DNA of 64,000 bases, from assembly GCF_028369105.1 (NCBI RefSeq), contig NZ_JAQNDO010000001.1, positions 9,828,501-9,892,500 on the forward strand, written 5' to 3'. Within the stretch, counting starts at the first letter, position 1. Each line of letters opens with the position of its first letter. Shown in pieces: positions 1,169-46,645 of the stretch. Made by a program: the position numbers and the translations under genes. The stretch comes from Polyangium mundeleinium. GTDB lineage: Bacteria > Myxococcota_A > Polyangia > Polyangiales > Polyangiaceae. The notes under the pieces are model-generated. The model made no database searches. It was not told the DNA's origin and saw only the letters and a program-made list of their open reading frames with translations.

Positions 1169-1230
1169 TCTACACGAGGTAGAGCTAGGTCGTAGGCTTC
1201 CGGACCACGGGGTCCGAGGGGGACGACACC

Positions 1231-2055
1231 ATGACCGAGCTCGCACCCGTGAACCTGACCGGCATTCCGGAGACGATGCTGTGGACGCTCCACAATCGCG
1301 CCAGCGAGGCCAAGCGGCCCGACGCGATCTTGCGTGATCCGGACGCCATTCGGATCTACGAGAGCGTTCGTTACGACTTCAAACGAAGCTTCGGCAAGCC
1401 CGACGGCTCGCACGCGATGCGGTCGCGTATCTTCGACGACGCGGTCCGGCCGTGGATGGCAAAGCATCCCGGGGGAACCGTGGTGGAGCTCGCCGCGGGG
1501 CTCGAGACGGAATTCCAGCGCTGTGACGACGGCAAGGTGCGCTGGATCTGCGTGGACGTGCCGGAGGCCATCGCGGTGCGCGAGCGGTTCCTGAAGGCGA
1601 ACGATCGTTGCAAATACGTGTCGAAGAGCGCGCTCGACTTCTCATGGATGGATGAAGTCGACGGTTCGCGCGGGGTTTTCGTGACCGCGCAGGGTCTCCT
1701 CATGTACTTCCACGAGAAGGACGTGCGGCGGCTGTTTCGGGCGATCGTGGAGCGGTTTCCCGGGGTCGAGCTGATGTTCGACGTCATTCCTCGGTGGTTC
1801 TCGAAAAAGACGCTCGTGGGGCTGCGCAAGACGAAGCATTACATAGCGCCGCCGATGCCCTGGGGCGTGAACCGGAGCGAGGTGAAGCGGCTGATCGAGA
1901 GCTGGAGCCCGCGCATCACGTCGGTGGAGCAGGTGTCGTTCGGTTATTTCCGCGGCGCGCCTGGCCTGCTGCTGCCGGTGTTCTCGAAGGTGCCGATCGT
2001 GCGCGACGTCATCCCGTCGATCGTGCGGGTCCGGACCTCGCGATGGACATCCTGA
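1231..2055 (+). CDS. Leucine carboxyl methyltransferase/TcmP-like SAM-dependent O-methyltransferase
   Basis: A 274-residue cytoplasmic protein of the LCM (PPM1/TcmP) methyltransferase family. Residues 1-70 hold the family entry region (ETMLWTLHNRASE, then RAxxFDDAVRPW-like), followed by the SAM-binding motif VVELAAGLET, a DVPE acidic loop and the FVTAQGLLMYF segment. Family members methylate carboxyl or hydroxyl groups, often of polyketides; the substrate is unknown. The ATG at 1231 is preceded by GAGGGGGA at good spacing and, just before that, by a hairpin CGGACC-ACGG-GGTCCG (1201-1216) that could modulate access. The Fur/Zur box at 1142-1168 suggests induction under metal limitation. It is a single gene; the next genes are convergent. 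Confidence 0.8.
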   Translation: MTELAPVNLTGIPETMLWTLHNRASEAKRPDAILRDPDAIRIYESVRYDFKRSFGKPDGSHAMRSRIFDDAVRPWMAKHPGGTVVELAAGLETEFQRCDDGKVRWICVDVPEAIAVRERFLKANDRCKYVSKSALDFSWMDEVDGSRGVFVTAQGLLMYFHEKDVRRLFRAIVERFPGVELMFDVIPRWFSKKTLVGLRKTKHYIAPPMPWGVNRSEVKRLIESWSPRITSVEQVSFGYFRGAPGLLLPVFSKVPIVRDVIPSIVRVRTSRWTS

Positions 2056-2090
2056 AGAGCGACGCGGACGCAGGTTCCTCGCAGGAGAGC

Positions 2091-4552
2091 TTATTCGAAG
2101 AAGCTCGTGTAGATGTCAGCGTTCGCGCCGTTCGTGCCCGCCGCGGTGCGGTTGTCGGTCCAAACGGTGATCGCCCGGGCGCCGGCAGCGTTCGTCACGA
2201 CGAACGGACTGCGCGAATCGGCCGCGCCTGCGGCCGAGGGGGCGCCCGCCATGCCGACATCCATGCGCAGGTCGAGCGGCTGGAAGGTCGCGCCGTTGTC
2301 GAAGGAGTGGTTCGCGAAGATGTCGCGTTGACCGCTCCGCGCGTCCTCCCAGGTGACGAACACAAGGCTCGCGCCGCCAAACGCGACGCGCGGGCGGGTC
2401 GAGGCGCTCGTGCCCGGGACGGTGCCGAGATCCGCGCGCGCCGAGGTCGGCTGCCACGTGACGCCGCCGTTCATCGAATGGTTCAGGCGAATGTCGGGCA
2501 AGCCGCTCCGCGTGTCCTCCCACGCGACGACGACGCGGCCGCCGGCCGATACAATCGCCGGCGCGGAGGCGTCGGCGAACGTGGAATCGACGTTCACGAT
2601 GGCCCCGTCGGCCTGGAACGTCATGCCGGCGTTGTTGCTGCGGTTCTGGCGGATGACCTTTTTCGCGCCACGCAGATCGGTCCAGGCGACGTACACGTTC
2701 GGCCCGCCCGAATCGGCGGCGACCGTGATCTGCTCGGCCGGATTGCCGCCCGAAAGCGCGACGTTCGCGCCGAGCGTGCCCGCCTCGGCGTCGTACACCG
2801 CGCCGTAGACCTCGGACTTGCCATTGCGCGCGTCGCGCCACGCGATGAACACCTTTCCATTATCGTTGGTGGCGATCGCGGGGAGCTCGGCCTTGCCCTG
2901 GACGGCATTGACGCGGAGGTCCGCCGCGAGCCACGTCGTCCCGTTGTTCGTCGATCGCTGGAGGAAGACGTCCGTCGTGACGTTCGCGCCGGTGCCGCTC
3001 AAGCTCTGCCAGACCACGACGAGCGTATCCTGCATGCCCGCCTTGGCCACGACGCCGCGCACGAGGAAGGCGTCGGCCGTGCCCGCGTCCTTGTCGACGC
3101 GCACGGGGACCGTGTACGTATTGTAAGGCGCAGGGGCCGAGGCAATGTACACGTCGCGGTGCGCGGCGACCGGGAACTGCGCGAGCGCCACGTAAGCGCG
3201 CGTCGGCGAGAGGAACGCCCAGGGCTCGACCTGCGTGAGTGTGCCGCTCGCGACCCCGGCGTCGGTCGTGAGCCACGTGGAGCCGCCGTTCGTCGAGACA
3301 TTCGCGCGGATGTCGGCATTGCCCGCGCGCCGATCGAGGTAGGCCGCAATCACGACGTCGCCGCGCGACGCGACCGAGAGCTGCGTGCTCGGCGCTTGCC
3401 CGACGGCCGAGTTCGCGCCGAGATCGAGGCGCGTGTCGGTCGCCTTCGCCACGGGGCAAGCCTCGTCCGCGCCGCCCGAGCAATCGTTGTCGAGGCCGTC
3501 GCAGAGCTCGGTGCCGGGGCCGATCGCTCCGACGCACGCGAGCATGCCGCCCTGGCAAGCCTGGGTCCCGAGCGAGCATTCGCCCACGTCGGAGGTGCCG
3601 CAGGAAGCCCCGACGCCCGGGAGCGTGCCGTCGTCGACGAGCCCGTTGCAATCGTTGTCGGCGCCGTCGCACGTCTCCGCGCCCGAGGGCGTGCAGGCAT
3701 ACTCGCAGCCGTTCGCCTCGATGCCGTCGAGATTGTAATGTCCGGGCAAACACGGGCCGAACGCGCAGACGCCCGCCGTGCAGGTGCCGACGGAGTTCGG
3801 GTAGAGCGCGCTGCAGTTCGTCCCGCAGGTGCCGCAGTTCGCCGGGTCCGTCTGGACGTCGAACCCCTCGTCGACGGTCGCGTCGCAGTCGTTGTCCGCG
3901 TAATCGCAGAGCTCGACGCCGCCGTTCGTCTCGGTGCACGCGTACTCGCAGCCGTCGCCGAGCGCGCCATTGACGTCGTGGTACCCGACGAGGCACTCGG
4001 CGAGCTGACAAGCACCCGCCACGCACGAGGGCGAGGCGTTCGCGTACGCGCAGACCGCATTGCAAGCGCCGCAGTTGAAGGGATCCCCTTGCAGATCGGT
4101 GAGCTCGTCGATCGCGCCGTTGCAATCGTTGTCGATCGTGTCGCAGATCTCGTCGCCGTTGTTCGAGACCGTGCACTTGTATTCGCAGCCGTTTGCGACC
4201 TGGTTGTCGAGGTCGACGAAGCCCGACGCGCACGTGTCGACCACGCAAAAGCCGGCCTCGCACGTGGAGAACGCGTTCGGCAGGTTGCAGACGACGCCAC
4301 AAGCGCCGCAGTTCTGCGGGTCGGTGAGGACGTCGGCATTGCAGCCGCCCGAGCCGCCCGAGCCGACGATGATGAGCCCTCCCTCACCGCCGTCGCCGCC
4401 CATGCCGCCCGCGCCGCCGGCGGCGCCCGAGCCGCTGCCCGAGGGCGTGGCGTTGCAATCCCAGCAAAAGGCATCGGTCGTGCAGCCGCTCGTGAACACG
4501 AGCGACGAGAGCGAGAGGCCGAGGATGGATGCGCTGAAGACGACAGACCTTT

Positions 4553-4556
<4 letters not shown>
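2091..4556 (-). CDS. Putative lipoprotein with MopE-like Cys/Asp repeats and Asp-box beta-propeller
   Basis: An 821-residue exported protein. The first 30 residues form a signal peptide ending in SGC (atypical lipobox, T at -3), then a Gly/Ser linker. Residues of about 60-390 carry repeated units of the form DxxxNCGxCxxxC and CDxxDNDCxGxxDE, the MopE-type metal-binding motif widespread in myxobacteria. The C-terminal half has at least five Asp-box turns (NGGSTW, NNGTTW, NNAGMTF, NGGVTW, DNGATF) of a sialidase-like propeller, without evidence for catalytic residues. The GTG start overlaps the stop of the upstream gene (GTGA, 4553-4556) and has GGAGGA in front, so the two are coupled. A surface binding or adhesion role is inferred. 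Longer forms of the frame upstream are shadows of the neighbouring gene. Confidence 0.75.
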
Positions 4557-6448
<1,892 letters not shown>

Positions 6449-6490
6449 GATGGCACGATAAGCGATCGCCGGGTTCTGCCACAAGGGACT

Positions 6491-9400
6491 TCAGGGGGCG
6501 CGACGAAGAGCAGCGCGTCGATCCTGGAAGCGCCGCGGCAAGAGGGGGTTCGTCGCGATCGCCTTGTCGAGCCATTCCACCGCCAGCCGAATGTCGTCCG
6601 CGCGGGCGGCGTCCTTTGCGGCGTGGGCGCGCTCAGCGAGGAGGGCGCCCTTGGCGGCCATGGCGAGGGCCCATTTCGGGTTGTGTTGGAGGGCCTCGTC
6701 GGCGACGGCGAGGCCCTCCGCGAGGAGTTTTTCGCGCGCCTCGCCGCGCGTGATCCGTTGCTCGGCCCGGAGCGCGAGCAGCTCGGCGAGCGTGGCGTGG
6801 AGCGGGGCGTGGCGGGTGTTGATGCGCAATCCCTCCCGAAGGACACGCTCGGCCTCGTCGAGCAGGGCCGCCGGCGCCTCGCCGCGGAGCGCCGCGCGTC
6901 GGGCCATGGTCATCGTGAGCAGGCCGAGCTCGAGGCGAATGAGGGGCTCCCGCGCGTCGAGCAGGGCAGCGCGGCGAAGCTCGGCGTGGGCCGCGTCGAG
7001 GACCTTTTGCGGATCGGCGTTCGTGCGGAGGAGGTAGAGCGCGCGGACGTGCTTCGCGGCGCCCATGCCGAAATGGGTATCGGCCTCATCCTTGTTGAGG
7101 TCGAGCGAGGCCTGGAAGCTCGCCTCGACACGATCGAGCGTCGCCGTGGGATCGACGCCGGTGGCCTCCTCGTATTGCGCGGCGACGAGCTCGGCCCAGC
7201 CGCGGTTGTTCAGCATGGGGAGCCATTTCGGGTTGATCTCCGCGCCACGCGCGCAAGCCTCGACGGCGCGCTGCACGGAAGGGCGCGGGTCCTGTCCGAT
7301 CGAGAGCTCGTAGCCCGCGCGGATCGCGAGGACGAGCGCCATGTTCGAAAACGCCGAGTTGTAGGTGCGGTCTTCCTTCCCCGCCCGCTCGTACCGCGCG
7401 ACGGATTCGTCGAGCGTCTTGCGAGGATCGAGCCCGTGGTCGGCCTCGTATTCCGCCCGGCTCTGGAGGGCGATGCCCGCGTCGTTCCAGGCCCACGCGA
7501 AGCTCGGCTGAATGCGGTTCGCTTCGTCGAAGCTCTTCATGGCGCGCTCGAGCGAGGGCACGGGGTCGAGCCCGATCCTGCGCTCGTACTTCGCGATGTA
7601 GACGTGGGCGATCCCGACGCCGTCCATCGAAATCGCGTCGCCCGGCGCGATCTGGATGGCCGCGCGCCCGCTCTCGACCGCCTTTTCGAGCGTCGGGCGA
7701 GGGTCGCCCCCGCTGCGGAGCTGGTGGTCGCCCAGGTGGTAATAGGCGCGCCCCTGCTTGCTGTACGTATTGGCGCTCCGCGGGTTCACCGCGAGCGCGT
7801 CGTTACACGCGGCGAGCGCGGCGTCGAACGCGACGCGGCCGTCGCGCCCCTCCCATTTGTCGAGGCCGAGGACCTGAATCCAGGATTCGGCGAGCGCCTC
7901 GTGGACGGCCGCGTCACTACGCGCCATGGACGCCGCCTCCCGATACGCCTCGATCGCCCGCATGAAGAGGCGGCGCCCCTCTTCCTGGCGCCCGCTCTCG
8001 CTCGCCGTGATCCCCGCCTCGAATCGCGCGTCCCCTTCGAGCTTCTTCGCCTCGTAGAGCCAGGGGGACTCTTCCGCCGCCCAAAGCGCCTTTGCCGCGG
8101 CGTCGTCGTAACGTTTTTCGTAAAGCGCGACGAGCCCCTCGATGTACGCCCGCGACTCGACTTCGGTCCCGCCGCTCGCTTGGAGGTGTCGCAAGGCCGG
8201 GTCGCGAAAGCTCGCCTCGGCCTTCCGGATCGCGGCCTCGCGCGCCGCCCCGTCTTCGAGGCGACGCGCGCCGTCGAGCTCTTCCTGATAACGACCGCCC
8301 AGCGCGAGCCCGAGCGCGTAATGCACCTCGGGCTTCGTGTACCCGGCCCCGAACGCCCGCGCGAGCTGCGTCCTCGCCGTCTCGTACTCGTGCAGCGCCA
8401 GGTGCCCGCGGCCGAGCGCGTAATGACCAGGGCCCTCGCCGGCGCGCCCAGCCGCGGCCATCCTGCGCTCGATTTCAGCGAGGCGGGCCCGCACGACGCG
8501 CCGCTCGCGCTCGATGTCGTGCGCGGGAAAACCGTATGCACTCCGAAGAAAGAGCTCGACGTATTTCACGTCCTCGCCGAGCTCGCGCGCGAGCCTCGCC
8601 TGCTCGGAGGCGTGCCGCGCGGCGTTCACCCACATGCCCCCGAGGACAAGCGCGACGCTGAGGCCGATGCCCGCGACGAGGACCACGGCCCGGTTTTTCC
8701 GCGTCTTCGCCCACAGGACATAAGCGAGCGAGGCGCGCTTGGCCTGGATCGGCTCCCCGTCGAGGAAGCGCTGGAGATCCTCCCCGAGCGCCCGCGCCGA
8801 TTCGTACCGGCGCGAAGGATCTCGCTGCAGGCACGTCATCACGATGGTCTCGAGCTCGGTGGGCACGCCCCGCCGGATGCTCCCGAGCCCCGGCGCGTCC
8901 TCGAGGATCACCTGCGTCAGGATCGACATCGCGTTTGACCCAACAAACGGCGGCCGGCCTGCGATGATCTCGTAGAGCGTGGCGCCCAGGCTGTAGACGT
9001 CCGTGCGCCGGTCGAGGAGGGTCGTATTCCCCTCCGCCTGCTCGGGGGACATGTACGACGGCGTGCCCGCAATGGCGTTCTGGAGCGTCTCGCCGCTGCC
9101 CGAGACTTCGCGGGCCAGCCCAAAATCGACGACGTAGGGCTTGAAGGAGCCGTCCTCGGCCGTCGTCACCATGATGTTGCCGGGTTTGACGTCGCGGTGA
9201 ACGAGGCCGAGCCGATGCGCCTCGTGCAGCGCCGCAGCAACCTCACGGACGACCTTCACCTTCTGCTCCAGCGTCATCTTCTGGTGCGCGCGATCGAGCG
9301 GCACGCCGTCGATGAGCTCCATCGCAATGTACGGCTGGCCGTCGGCCTCGCCGACCTCGTACACGCGACAAACGTTGTCGTGCTGCACGCGCGCCTGCGC

Positions 9401-43246: not shown

Positions 43247-43312
43247 GCGCGCCTCCAAGTCGCCTGCGCGCGTCTCCAAGTCGCCTGCGCGCGTCTCCAA
43301 GTCGCCTGCGCG
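43247..43312. repeat. Left part (3 units) of a 21-bp direct-repeat array
   Basis: Three units of GCGYCTCCAAGTCGCCTGC spacing 21 bp, the same unit as in the 19-copy array at 46251-46645. The sequence stops inside a unit, at CCTGCGCG (43305-43312), exactly where the mobile element begins. Confidence 0.9.
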
Positions 43313-43354
43313 GGTAGTGCGGTCATTTGGCCGAAACTGCGGTCATTCGGCCGA
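43313..43354 (+). repeat. Left terminal repeat with two 16-bp dyads
   Basis: After GGTAG come GCGGTCATTTGGCCGA (43319-43334) and GCGGTCATTCGGCCGA (43339-43354), two similar imperfect dyads exactly 20 bp apart. The right end has two better dyads with the same spacing, so these are probably transposase-binding sites. Confidence 0.7.
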
Positions 43355-43465
43355 ATCGTGATCGGGAACGCGTAGGATGTGCGTCGTCCGAAAGACGCCC
43401 GCCTCGGAGGGCTACCGACCTCCGAGGCGGACTTGACGCAACCACGCTCGCACGAGGTCACGCCC

Positions 43466-43819
43466 ATGCACGATCTGTCATGGCCCGGCTCATACGGCCA
43501 AGAGAACGATCCGCCCTGCCCGCCCGAACCCGAGACGCCGCGCCGGCGCAAGTCGGGCGCGCTCATGCTCTCCGCGGAGGAGGCGCGCCACGTGCGCGTC
43601 GCGGTCCGGAAGCTCCGTCGCGCGTTCGGTAGCTTCAACGCGCTCGCCGCGAGGCTGAACATGCCCGCGAACACCGTCCGTCGCATCGCGAACCCGAAGG
43701 GCACGCCGCCCACGGGGACCTTCGCCATCCGCCTGGCCGCCATCGCGGGCGTCTCGGTCGAGGTGCTTCTCGGCGGCAAGCTCGTCGTGACGACGCCGAT
43801 CATCGGGAGGGCAGCATGA
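43466..43819 (+). CDS. Small helix-turn-helix protein, passenger gene
   Basis: A 117-residue protein. A Pro-rich N-terminus (residues 1-30) precedes a helical domain (MLSAEEARHVRVAVRKLRRAFGSFNALAARLNMPANTVRRIANPKGTPPTGTFAIRLAAIAGVSVEVLLGG) with XRE/lambda-repressor-like helix-turn-helix spacing. It may autoregulate the element or bind the terminal dyads. ATG 43466 has GAGG eight bases upstream. Its stop overlaps the next ATG as ATGA (43816-43819), so the two products are coupled. Confidence 0.7.
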   Translation: MHDLSWPGSYGQENDPPCPPEPETPRRRKSGALMLSAEEARHVRVAVRKLRRAFGSFNALAARLNMPANTVRRIANPKGTPPTGTFAIRLAAIAGVSVEVLLGGKLVVTTPIIGRAA

Positions 43820-44064
43820 GCCGGTCGCGCGTCAGGGAACGCGAGCGCGTCCGCGCCACCGTCCATACGACCGACCCGGCCGCGCTGGCGGCCTACGCGG
43901 GCGCGCTGCGTCCCGTCGTCGCGAGCCTTCGGACGCTGGTCGAGGACGCGACCGCTGCGCCGTCGAAGCGCGTCCACGCCCGCGCCTTCCTGCGTCGGGA
44001 GATCCTCCGCGGCATCCGTGAGCTTGAAGCCCGGATCGACGCCGCCGCGCCGCCTGCGCCCTAG
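43816..44064 (+). CDS. 82-residue basic helical protein, passenger gene
   Basis: An 82-residue protein, Arg- and Ala-rich, predicted to be mostly two long helices (PAALAAYAGALRPVVASLRTLVEDA; RVHARAFLRREILRGIRELEARID). No family recognised. Coding is supported by the ATGA overlap with the helix-turn-helix gene and by codon third-position G/C. It converges with the reverse passenger operon, 77 bp away. Confidence 0.6.
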   Translation: MSRSRVRERERVRATVHTTDPAALAAYAGALRPVVASLRTLVEDATAAPSKRVHARAFLRREILRGIRELEARIDAAAPPAP

Positions 44065-44141
44065 CCTGCTCCTCACCCAAAGGACCGGAAGAGGACCCGC
44101 TGGCCGTATAGGCCTCCGCTGCGTTTCCTCATTGTCGACCA

Positions 44142-44594
44142 TCACGACGACGGCCCTCCCTTCTCGTTCTTCTCTACTGCGAGCAACGAGTTTACGTACC
44201 TTCGCGCTATCTCGTGAAATGGTTCGCTGGTTTTGACCTTGTCTCGTTTTACGAGATAGACCACGGTCTGCGCTATCAATGCGGACGTTCCGACAACCAG
44301 AATGGCCACATCGAACCCGTTACCCGGAGTCATCACAATATCCTTTATTGCTTTTGCGATGAGTCCCAGCGCGCTCGCGCCTCCGACAAGCGCCGCCCAC
44401 CCGTCTGGACGCTTCGGAGGATTATCAAGGGCTGCCTTTACGACGTCCAATTCAGTGTCCTTGATGCGCGGCGCTCGCGTCGCCAACATGCCATCGCGCC
44501 CGTGATCTACTGGCGCACTCAGTGCTTCGCGCAATCGAGGATCCATGCTCGCCCGCTTGGCTACCTTCGCTGCCAAATCGTCTTGCGAGCTCAT
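44142..44594 (-). CDS. Two-helix membrane protein, passenger gene
   Basis: A 150-residue protein. A cytosolic N-terminal part (about 1-65, charged) precedes two hydrophobic helices (GWAALVGGASALGLIAKAIKDIV; FDVAILVVGTSALIAQTVVYLV), then a basic stretch and a helical tail. It has an AGGAGG ribosome-binding site with perfect spacing. The ATG overlaps the upstream gene's stop (ATGA, 44591-44594). Local G+C is low (two sampled 60-base lines 47% and 55%) against about 70% or more in the flanks, so this pair came from elsewhere. No family recognised. Confidence 0.75.
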   Translation of the reverse strand: MSSQDDLAAKVAKRASMDPRLREALSAPVDHGRDGMLATRAPRIKDTELDVVKAALDNPPKRPDGWAALVGGASALGLIAKAIKDIVMTPGNGFDVAILVVGTSALIAQTVVYLVKRDKVKTSEPFHEIARRYVNSLLAVEKNEKGGPSS

Positions 44595-44875
44595 CGTGAA
44601 CCTCCTGGCCAAACGCCAGGAGCAATGACGCTCGCCGCGTACATCTCCACGTAGCCGCATAGCTGGCATACATATGGACGCACAGGAAACAGTGGGCCGC
44701 CCGGTGTGAACGTCGCAAGCTTGCCGTCCCTTGTAGGAGGAGCGACGCTGTCAAGCGCATACCATACCGTTGAATCCGAAACCATCGTCGTGTCTTGGTT
44801 AACGGCTGTATGCGTAGGGTGTTCGTGACTGACGCACACGAGCACGTGCTTGTTTCCCTTGAGGACAATGGGCAT
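44591..44875 (-). CDS. Zinc-ribbon-like small protein, passenger gene
   Basis: A 94-residue protein with a C-terminal half zinc-ribbon (VRPYVCQLCGYVEMYAA, about residues 65-81), a motif common in small nucleic-acid-binding or adaptor proteins, and a His/Cys-containing N-terminal segment (VCVSHEHPTHT). It is the first gene of a two-gene coupled operon with the two-helix membrane protein and shares its low G+C. The ribosome-binding site is weak; start ATG 44875 is the first in frame. A toxin-antitoxin or defence pair is possible but cannot be shown. Confidence 0.7.
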   Translation of the reverse strand: MPIVLKGNKHVLVCVSHEHPTHTAVNQDTTMVSDSTVWYALDSVAPPTRDGKLATFTPGGPLFPVRPYVCQLCGYVEMYAASVIAPGVWPGGSR

Positions 44876-45072
44876 GCGTCTTGCGTACTACACGTTCCGC
44901 AAAGTGGGAAAGTTCGCGGCTCCGTAGCCATCACACTAGGACAATTCGTGTCCGACCATTGCGTCGATTCTCCGCATTTTCGGCGAGTTTCGTGGTACTT
45001 TCGGTTCGTCAACGGCGACGCGGCGATGGCGCAGAGGGGCGCCTGATAGACCGTCGCCGGGGCAAGGGCCCG

Positions 45073-46206
45073 ATGGCGAACTTCCTTTCCGAAGAGAAGC
45101 GTCTCCGCGTGCTTGCGGCGCTCGTAGAGGGCAACTCCGAGCGGGCGATCGAGCGCATGACCGGCGTCCAGCAGAAGACGATCGGACGGTTCGCGCTCTC
45201 CCTTGGCGAGGGCGCGGTGAACCTGCACAACCGGCTCGCGCGGGGCCTGCATTGCCCCCTCGTGACCGTCGATGAGATTTGGAGCTACGTCGCGAAGAAG
45301 CAGGCGCGCGTCACGCCCGAAGACGGCCCTGACGTCGGGGAGGCGTACACGTTCGTTGCCCTCGATGCGTCGAGCCGCTTCGTCATCGGCTGGCACGTCG
45401 GGAAGCGCGACCAGGCATCGACCGACATCTTCATGCAGGACATCCGCGCTCGGCTGGTCGTGATGCCCGCCATGACCTCGGACGGCTTCGCGCCCTACAT
45501 CAGCGCGATCGGCGCGTCCTTCGGACTGGGCGTCGATTACGCGCAGACCGTCAAGAACTACTCGAAACGCGGGCGGCGCGACGACGACCATCGTTATGAA
45601 CCGCCGCGCCTGGACGGCGGCGGGTTCATCACGAAGCGGGCGATCTTCGGGGCCCCGAACCTGGATCGCGCGAGCACGGCCTACGTGGAGCGCAACAACG
45701 CCACGATGCGCCACCACATCGGCCGCATGCGTCGGCTCTGCCTCGCGTTCAGCAAGCGCCTCGACCGCCACCGGGCCGCCGTCGCGCTCAATTACGCCTG
45801 GTACAACCTCGGGACGGTCGTGAAGACCCTCCGCGTGACGCCAGCGATGCAGCTCGGCTTGACCGACCACGTGTGGACGCTCGAAGAGTTCCAGGCCGCG
45901 CTCCTCACCGCCGGCCTGTGTGAGCCTCCGGAGCGTCAGCCCCTCGCGCCGCGCGTGCCTGAAGGGCCGGCCCGGGAGCTTCCGAACGGCCGTGGCTTCC
46001 TTCGCGTCGTGGGGGGCGGGAAGGCATCGGCAGAGCGTCACCACGTCGAACCCCCTCCGGTCACGCCCGCGCCCGTTGTGGTACCTGTCGAGCCCGTCGC
46101 CGATCCGACCGGGCAGCTTGACCTGTTCGCGTGGCGCCCGAAGGCTCCCCCGATAGGACAGCTCCCCCTGTTCCCCGGGTTCGATGACCCGAAAGGAGGG
46201 GAGTAG
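45073..46206 (+). CDS. IS1-like DDE transposase with C-terminal extension
   Basis: A 377-residue protein. N-terminal helix-turn-helix (LVEGNSERAIERMTGVQQKTIGRF, residues of about 17-40) and a DDE core: VDEIWSYVAKKQ (first Asp), MTSDGFAPYISAI (second Asp), YVERNNATMRHHIGRMRRL (Glu), then LNYAWYNLG. The DEIWSYV and SDG/VERNN motifs match IS1-family transposases; IS1 itself uses a frameshifted InsAB', whereas this is one frame. Residues from about 300 form a Pro-rich extension ending QLPLFPGFDDPKGGE, not part of known IS1 cores. ATG 45073 is chosen because conserved sequence starts there; the frame is open further upstream. Confidence 0.85.
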   Translation: MANFLSEEKRLRVLAALVEGNSERAIERMTGVQQKTIGRFALSLGEGAVNLHNRLARGLHCPLVTVDEIWSYVAKKQARVTPEDGPDVGEAYTFVALDASSRFVIGWHVGKRDQASTDIFMQDIRARLVVMPAMTSDGFAPYISAIGASFGLGVDYAQTVKNYSKRGRRDDDHRYEPPRLDGGGFITKRAIFGAPNLDRASTAYVERNNATMRHHIGRMRRLCLAFSKRLDRHRAAVALNYAWYNLGTVVKTLRVTPAMQLGLTDHVWTLEEFQAALLTAGLCEPPERQPLAPRVPEGPARELPNGRGFLRVVGGGKASAERHHVEPPPVTPAPVVVPVEPVADPTGQLDLFAWRPKAPPIGQLPLFPGFDDPKGGE

Positions 46207-46250
46207 ACTGCGGTCATTTGACCGCCGACTGCGGTAATTACCGCACCACC
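46207..46250 (-). repeat. Right terminal repeat with two 16-bp dyads
   Basis: GCGGTCATTTGACCGC (46210-46225) and TGCGGTAATTACCGCA (46230-46245; a perfect palindrome) are dyads 20 bp centre to centre. Read inverted from 46250 the end begins GGTGGTGCGGTAATT, pairing with the left end. Confidence 0.8.
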
Positions 46251-46645
46251 CCTGCGCGCGCCTCCAAGTCGCCTGCGCGCGTCTCCAAGTCGCCTGCGCA
46301 CGTCTCCAAGTCGCCTGCGCGCGTCTCCAAGTCGCCTGCGCACGTCTCCAAGTCGCCTGCGCGCGTCTCCAAGACGCCTGCGCGCGTCTCCAAGTCGCCT
46401 GCGCACGTCTCCAAGTCGCCTGCGCGCGTCTCCAAGTCGCCTGCGCGCGTCTCCAAGTCGCCTGCGCGCGTCTCCAAGACGCCTGCGCGCGTCTCCAAGT
46501 CGCCTGCGCGCGTCTCCAAGTCGCCTGCGCGCGTCTCCAAGACGCCTGCGCGCGTCTCCAAGTCGCCTGCGCGCGTCTCCAAGACGCCTGCGCGCGTCTC
46601 CAAGACGCGTCCGCGCGTCTCCAAGTCGCGCGCACGCGTCTCCAA
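46251..46645. repeat. Right part (19 units) of the 21-bp direct-repeat array
   Basis: Nineteen units of GCGTCTCCAAGTCGCCTGCGC with 21-bp period and few substitutions; five units have AAGACGC in place of AAGTCGC, which turns GCGTCT-CCA-AGACGC into a perfect 6-bp hairpin. The last two units are more divergent, as in ageing array ends. There are no spacers, so it is not CRISPR. All frames are open across the array, but no start, ribosome-binding site or codon evidence supports a protein. The rest of 46646-46795 holds a hairpin and a direct repeat (see below) and no gene. Confidence 0.9.

Follow-up and report, generated by a model that had tools for sequence, protein, structure and literature searches.

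A cargo-bearing IS1-like element in a tandem array of Polyangium mundeleinium and the array preference of its close relatives

What occupies the DNA that interrupts a 21-bp tandem array in Polyangium mundeleinium, and why does it sit there? The question arises at positions 43313-46250 of the stretch analysed here (64,000 nucleotides of assembly GCF_028369105.1, contig NZ_JAQNDO010000001.1, positions 9,828,501 to 9,892,500; hereafter the window). An initial annotation, made from the letters alone, had described the feature as an IS1-family-like element carrying four passenger genes. Our analysis confirms that it is a genuine mobile element and partly supports the accompanying interpretation. 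The best explanation, to which we give a probability of roughly 0.8, is a mobile IS1-like transposon of the transporter insertion sequence (tIS) type, working by the mechanism proposed below. Its boundaries, its recurrence, the exchange of its cargo slot, the preference of its relatives for arrays and the motifs in the transposase tail are read from sequence comparisons.

The ends and the flanking octamer lie where they had been placed. The element begins with GGTAGTGCGGTCATT... at 43313 and closes with the inverted GGTGGTGCGGTAATT... at 46250, both of the type GGTRGTG, and the 8-bp copies of CCTGCGCG that border it are identical, forming an exact target-site duplication (TSD). Insertion is in register, as excising the element together with one octamer yields an in-phase array (Tandem Repeats Finder, TRF, on the joined flanks: period 21, 21.6 copies). 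An empty site with an uninterrupted array, which the initial annotation had suggested looking for, occurs naturally in a congener (G003) at the same dus-array-dynamin locus, comprising an upstream gene (dus by our reading), the array without the element, and a downstream dynamin-like gene. DNA identity with the window is 96% as far as base 43312, and the match picks up again within the array. Together, the TSD and the empty site suggest that the element may have been mobilised as one unit. The sizes of IS1A (768 bp) and of an archaeal relative (L066, 1200 bp, with little room beyond the transposase) might suggest a plain small IS1 relative neighbouring unrelated host genes, or a pair of solo ends flanking such genes. 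However, the duplication encloses all 2938 bp, relatives repeat the combination of backbone genes and ends, and the congener has no part of the element; this account, refuted by the empty site, retains next to no probability. The length of about 2.94 kb noted earlier holds, and the excess over IS1A consists of additional genes.

It is also very improbable that the arrays are by-products of the elements, grown from expanded duplicated targets, rather than their targets. Each insertion does duplicate 8 bp, but the repeat unit is 21 bp and the congener holds the array without the element. Moreover, the window array family (at most two mismatches) occurs at six places in the 13.25-Mb genome; an element is present at three of them (window, L010, L014), and the other three are without a family transposase.

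The transposase bears the IS1-like motifs and the single uninterrupted frame that had been reported for it. D67, D137 and E206, with neighbouring DExW, DG, ERxN and FSK residues, align with InsB of IS1A, and the D-D-E residues are invariant across 58 aligned transposases (of 66 called). The Pfam model DDE_Tnp_IS1 scores just above its cut-off (25.3 against 24.1 bits), whereas the NCBIfam equivalog transpos_IS1 reaches 54.9 bits, below a cut-off of 100 that is attained by none of the six family copies in this genome. An AlphaFold model (mean predicted local distance difference test, pLDDT, 82.9) comprises a helical N-terminal part and a mixed core, with low confidence beyond about residue 310. 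Foldseek matched the core to transposases and integrases, the best PDB entry being ISCth4 (E = 3.3 × 10−6, though with a TM-score of only ~0.3). All five element genes have open frames and ratios of nonsynonymous to synonymous substitution rates (dN/dS) of 0.12-0.57, with a high or saturated dS in the cargo pair; they are therefore supported as real. An immobile remnant, that is, a fixed copy with degenerate cargo, could be suggested by terminal repeats that agree at only 14 of the first 20 positions and by the next genomic copy, whose transposase is only 71% identical. Given these open frames and dN/dS values, and the absence of the element from a congener with a 96% identical left flank, we consider a remnant improbable.

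Classical IS1 members measure ~0.7-0.8 kb, have two frames (insA and insB) and duplicate 8-9 bp of target; single-frame members exist, for instance ISMhu11. Because its length, its single transposase frame and its NCBIfam score deviate from this pattern, we call the element IS1-like, of tIS type by its gene content, and not a classical IS1. It shares with IS1A of E. coli MG1655 the GGT-starting ends (GGTGATG/GGTAATG in IS1A) and the D-D-E core, but has 2938 bp and one transposase frame against 768 bp with insA and insB, and adds a helical N-terminal part, a C-terminal tail, a helix-turn-helix (HTH) operon and cargo. Transporter ISs are members of several IS families bearing passenger genes, and IS1 is not named among these families in the part of the published account considered here (PMC7986276). 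The organisation described there, IS-type ends with a transposase and other genes (PMC7986276, same part), recurs in the window, where such ends enclose non-transposase genes as had been proposed. What differs is that cargo is borne throughout the clade of the window element, alongside a conserved regulatory gene and a slot whose contents can be exchanged.

Further copies have ends of this kind, and their boundaries recur, so that the element is not the singleton which would have spoken against the initial annotation. Including the window's, the genome encodes six family transposases, the other five being 50-71% identical to it; both ends were found for all five, and duplications for four (L013, 8/8; L014, 8 bp; L012, 9 bp; L010, 7/8). 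A scan of one genome per species returned 73 loci, and 11 of 39 relatives' genomes (own genome included) had a match. Under a GGTRGYG end rule, ends plus a duplication (at least 7 of 8 bp) were recovered for 49 of 102 transposase hits, against 0-2 in shifted controls. This rule missed a branch with GGTNCTGATCAA ends, in which L012, with its 9-bp duplication, and L014 were positioned by visual inspection. A wider GGT...ACC rule, applied to hits of at least 150 aa, gave ends for 68 of 89 (shifted controls 3-8). Five contigs identical to others had been dropped before the end scans (L016-L020, identical to L138, L139, L147, L146 and L150). After the wider scan two rows were removed, namely L140_6817 (a second transposase within one composite element) and L033 (weak ends), and two were added by eye, leaving a final set of 68 elements.

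These fall into a group of 39 from Polyangium, Sorangium and two more genomes in the host's family, with a median length of 4140 bp (range 2730-6657), and 29 elements outside it, with a median of 2904 bp (1200-4276). L133, although outside the group, also comes from the host's family. Two of the 29, at 1200 and 1476 bp, approach the size of a plain IS. A branch with support 96/97 sets the 39-row group apart in the tree, and one with 98/100 does so for 30 other rows; the position of IS1A is unsafe owing to long branches. Of 282 genomes drawn evenly from the phylum, 21 held a relative at E = 10−10. No ends were found for plasmid relatives in Deinococcus and Sphingomonas. RES and Xre genes in Acidiphilium were considered as cargo and rejected, as they lie outside the relative's right end save for ~18 bp of the RES gene. 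One group member (L140:4284-10940) is a 6657-bp composite with two opposed, related transposases and two HTH modules inside one end pair and one duplication.

Tandem arrays appear, from the joined flanks, to be the preferred target of the Polyangium/Sorangium group. Once the flanks are joined across each element, 30 of the 39 insertions prove to lie inside an array, and the smallest periods are 21 or 22 (20 cases), 41-43 (nine) and 85 (one), so that all 30 belong to a 21 series found in 25 of 77 background arrays. Such a preference might be only apparent: under passive tolerance, elements would insert widely and only insertions into intergenic repeats would survive selection. Arrays do look dispensable, about half of background array bases being noncoding (4241/8362, by our simple gene calls). 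Yet by the same calls arrays make up merely 5.8% of the noncoding flank at these loci, and for five further ISs that are multi-copy in two group genomes, none of the 19 control copies lies inside an array, although 2 of 19 abut one (Fisher's P = 7 × 10−9 for inside and 2 × 10−6 for abutting, relatedness ignored). Relatives outside the group show no array insertion either (0/28, plus 0/1 in G015). Finally, the targets form 23 sequence families in our clustering, and the largest holds nine insertions in one register, as judged by eye. We therefore hold passive tolerance to be unlikely. The 19 control copies derive from 26 loci, of which three had no match and four of the 23 listed (rve491) had no boundary in the locus; control boundaries were taken from BLAST extents without a recognised duplication and are exact to a few bases only. 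In G000, six copies of a 375-aa rve transposase are all outside arrays, and in G023 one IS type abuts arrays in two of three delimited copies.

Three different family elements sit within one 21-bp array (L144:5723-15031), each with the duplication CTACGACG, and in two species one orthologous locus holds different elements with different duplications (L126 and L148). The flank comparison revealed no other cross-species pair with comparably close, ordered matches in both flanks; flank matches of 77-84% were seen for L145/L147 and, between elements of one genome, for L144/L145 and L123/L137. No sequence consensus emerged at the target sites, no position exceeding 0.45 bits among 38 of them. The target centre has a weak dyad symmetry, scoring 0.477 over 37 sites against a mean of 0.283 at other centres (sd 0.037, maximum 0.436), and 0.449 against 0.285 over the 28 distinct sites.

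The array-targeting group is also set apart by its transposase tail. The proline-rich C-terminal extension seen by the initial annotation is present and additionally carries two clamp-binding-like motifs, QLDLF and QLPLF. Motifs of the form Q-hydrophobic-x-hydrophobic-aromatic (or Leu) occur in the last 70 residues of 38 of 39 group transposases, two or more in 23, and strict QLxLF-type motifs in 26 of 39; shuffled tails gave means of 0.31 (loose), 0 (two or more) and 0.02 (strict). Among 35 other rows, IS1A included, no strict motif was found and a single loose one, outside the tail. QLxLF at transposase C-termini is, in the excerpts used here, the published beta-clamp-binding consensus (PMC4549789, PMC5371812). 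In one of these (PMC4549789, in part) such a motif is described for transposases such as that of IS1634, some of which have a second, and nine IS families are said, on the authority of its reference 21, to bind the clamp; the term "IS1 family" is absent from its main text. The predicted motifs in the window differ from those of IS1634 in lying on a proline-rich tail and in being confined to the array-targeting branch.

Of the four passenger genes described in two opposite coupled pairs, only the minus-strand pair is exchanged cargo; the plus-strand pair is a backbone common to close relatives. Comparison of cargo across copies indicates that slot contents have been replaced between otherwise very similar elements. 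Against L137, from another species and with a transposase 91% identical, element bases 1-742 and 1624-2938 match at 87-88% DNA identity, with nothing between. Similarly, L142, L143 and L144_12998, from a single genome, have both flanks 87-95% identical around an unmatched middle of 0.9-1.9 kb. The right junction of the slot is sharp in seven aligned elements and falls at a conserved palindrome, a possible operator (positions 44939-44953). The window pair was found again in one other fetched element (L144), at 52% and 41% identity and rough dN/dS of 0.27 and 0.20 (dS 1.5 and 3.1). The 150-aa protein has a match in 2 of 39 relatives' genomes (its own and G001), and a plasmid collection held no homologue of either protein. 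A structure model of the 94-aa protein, built from two sequences, was unusable (pLDDT 39.5).

Defence- or addiction-type cargo had been suggested for the window copy. Its pair matches no such family, whereas the slots of some relatives do carry genes of this kind. We surveyed 58 of 280 called non-transposase frames, chosen by ourselves and mostly singletons of at least 140 aa. Pfam returned 20 families, including SocA/Panacea (two members), PIN, RadC, ParB, Bro-N, dCTP deaminase-like and AAA. PADLOC at 10−3 returned 154 families (strongest 1.5 × 10−111) against 12 (strongest 9 × 10−28) for 58 flanking host proteins, the former figure being inflated by ATPase models, many of which probably match one AAA protein. 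Of 20 cargo proteins that we selected and examined singly, 7 match PADLOC and 13, the window pair included, do not. The matches are PD-T4-10_B in L122, PD-Lambda-2_B in L027, L032 and L044, and the candidate systems (PDC names) PDC-S42 in L140, PDC-M32A in L021 and PDC-M14B in L148. Other slots hold a HigB-type toxin (L032), P63C proteins (L010, L049) and HTH-M78 peptidase proteins (L030, L056). In the 5.3-kb group element L122 (4767-6235), genes of 144 and 346 aa overlap by 4 bp, the second being the PD-T4-10_B match; PD-T4-10_A matched one member of the same cargo set, presumably the 144-aa gene.

As part of the backbone, all 39 group elements have an HTH gene of one family just inside one end, reading inward. 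The match begins 34-185 bp in from that end (search with 25 query proteins, nearly all from group elements themselves); sub-threshold Pfam hits, together with PDB matches, mark the gene product as Cro/CI-like. The transposase, which lies towards the opposite end, reads outward in 13 group elements and inward in 26. A sigma-factor-like protein is encoded by 24 of the 39, the window element not among them; of 15 members, eight match Pfam Sigma70_r2 and five r4_2, and the PDB match is CnrH (5.5 × 10−16). Between the HTH proteins of L137, L140, L142 and L148 and that of the window (43466-43816), two versions of the HTH region (~35 residues) alternate on near-alike proteins, as if binding specificities were swapped.

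Under the mechanism that we propose, the HTH protein would repress the element's promoters through palindromes at the ends and at the slot junction, and the slot would be swapped when backbones undergo homologous recombination. Through the two QLxLF motifs of its proline-rich tail, the transposase would be tethered to the beta sliding clamp, and hence to replicating DNA, where the dyad in a phased repeat would become the insertion target. Arrays might then offer the element safe havens, and its upkeep might be paid for by the cargo, which in some elements consists of defence or toxin-antitoxin genes. Array insertion looks like a way of spreading defence-type genes without breaking host genes. 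Only tentatively, at somewhat less than even odds, do we extend this to a Polyangiaceae IS1-like lineage with programmed, register-specific insertion into phased ~21-bp repeats by a replisome tether (tandem clamp motifs on a flexible tail), using unrelated minisatellites as safe havens and shuttling a swappable defence cassette under its own HTH/sigma-like regulator.

Several observations weigh against this interpretation. Nine of the 39 group sites lie outside TRF-detected arrays. As judged partly by eye, three of them belong to a single dispersed palindromic repeat and two more occupy other hairpin-like sequence; a further site falls between two 43-bp copies, another at a contig end and another 60 bp away from an array, and L012 fits none of these settings. 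L011, in the same genome as the window, has both ends without a duplication. An array lies within 400 bp of 6 of the 19 control IS copies, and of the two that abut one, L223 has arrays on both sides; other ISs are therefore not wholly excluded from arrays. The target dyad is imperfect and weak, and may be the ordinary symmetry of transposase targets, because a lesser signal (z = 2.0) is present in other relatives too. The clamp motifs are a sequence match alone, and the transposase of L022 ends early, without a motif, yet sits in an array, so that the link between tail and array choice is one of association. Finally, the window cargo pair has no match in PADLOC, NCBIfam or PHROGs, and in Pfam only sub-threshold zinc-ribbon and DUF matches.

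IS1 is the textbook minimal insertion sequence, and here a related lineage bears exchangeable, partly defence-type cargo and regulators of its own, and favours tandem repeats of widely differing sequence. The machineries of Tn7-like and Tn3 transposons differ from the IS1-like one. In the portions of the sources used, Tn7-like transposons bearing defence cargo (PMC8649781) and Tn3 transposons that harbour toxin-antitoxin pairs (PMC7157771) resemble the present elements as carriers of such genes, and the lineage would be another small defence-gene carrier beside them. It would also connect the replication clamp with the choice of target in a way that can be tested. Closely delimited by alike flanks, the cargo slot is a place to seek uncharacterised defence genes, the window pair included. 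A literature search found no title or opening of an abstract describing the clade or array-directed insertion in bacteria, which is weak evidence, as most subscription papers and ISfinder were outside its scope. Table 1 lists the features of the element.

Table 1. Features of the IS1-like element and its insertion site (window positions)
Feature	Position	Strand	Remarks
Whole element	43313-46250		2938 bp; terminal inverted repeats and exact 8-bp duplication; empty site in congener
Left end	43313-43355	+	Terminal inverted repeat and two 20-bp subterminal direct repeats (43318-43355)
Right terminal inverted repeat	46227-46250	-	Includes perfect palindrome TGCGGTAATTACCGCA at 46230-46245
TSD CCTGCGCG, left copy	43305-43312		
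TSD CCTGCGCG, right copy	46251-46258		
Target 21-bp tandem array, left part	43247-43312		TRF; array without element in congener
Target 21-bp tandem array, right part	46251-46645		TRF; 18.8 copies
Backbone gene 1	43466-43819	+	117-aa Cro/CI-type HTH protein; begins 154 bp inside the end; Pfam under curated cut-off
Backbone gene 2	43816-44064	+	82-aa protein; overlaps gene 1 by 4 bp; matches no family
Cargo slot	44055-44935		No DNA match to closest relative (L137); flanks on either side 87-88% identical
Cargo gene	44142-44594	-	150 aa; probably two membrane segments (by eye); no family
Cargo gene	44591-44875	-	94 aa; possible zinc ribbon, from conserved pairs of H and C; lies upstream of the 44142-44594 gene, 4-bp overlap
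Hyphenated palindrome GGACA-N5-TGTCC	44939-44953	+	Junction of slot and transposase module; conserved in an alignment of seven elements
Transposase	45073-46206	+	377 aa, single frame (ATG 45073); D67, D137, E206
Motif 1, QLDLF codons (residues 348-352)	46114-46128	+	Clamp-binding-like
Motif 2, QLPLF codons (residues 363-367)	46159-46173	+	Clamp-binding-like

Of the 29 elements outside the group, 22 encode a small KGG-type protein at most 400 bp from an end. On a Mesorhizobium plasmid its place is occupied by a gene annotated as histone H1, and one KGG-type member matches PHROG 2384, a family of unknown function.

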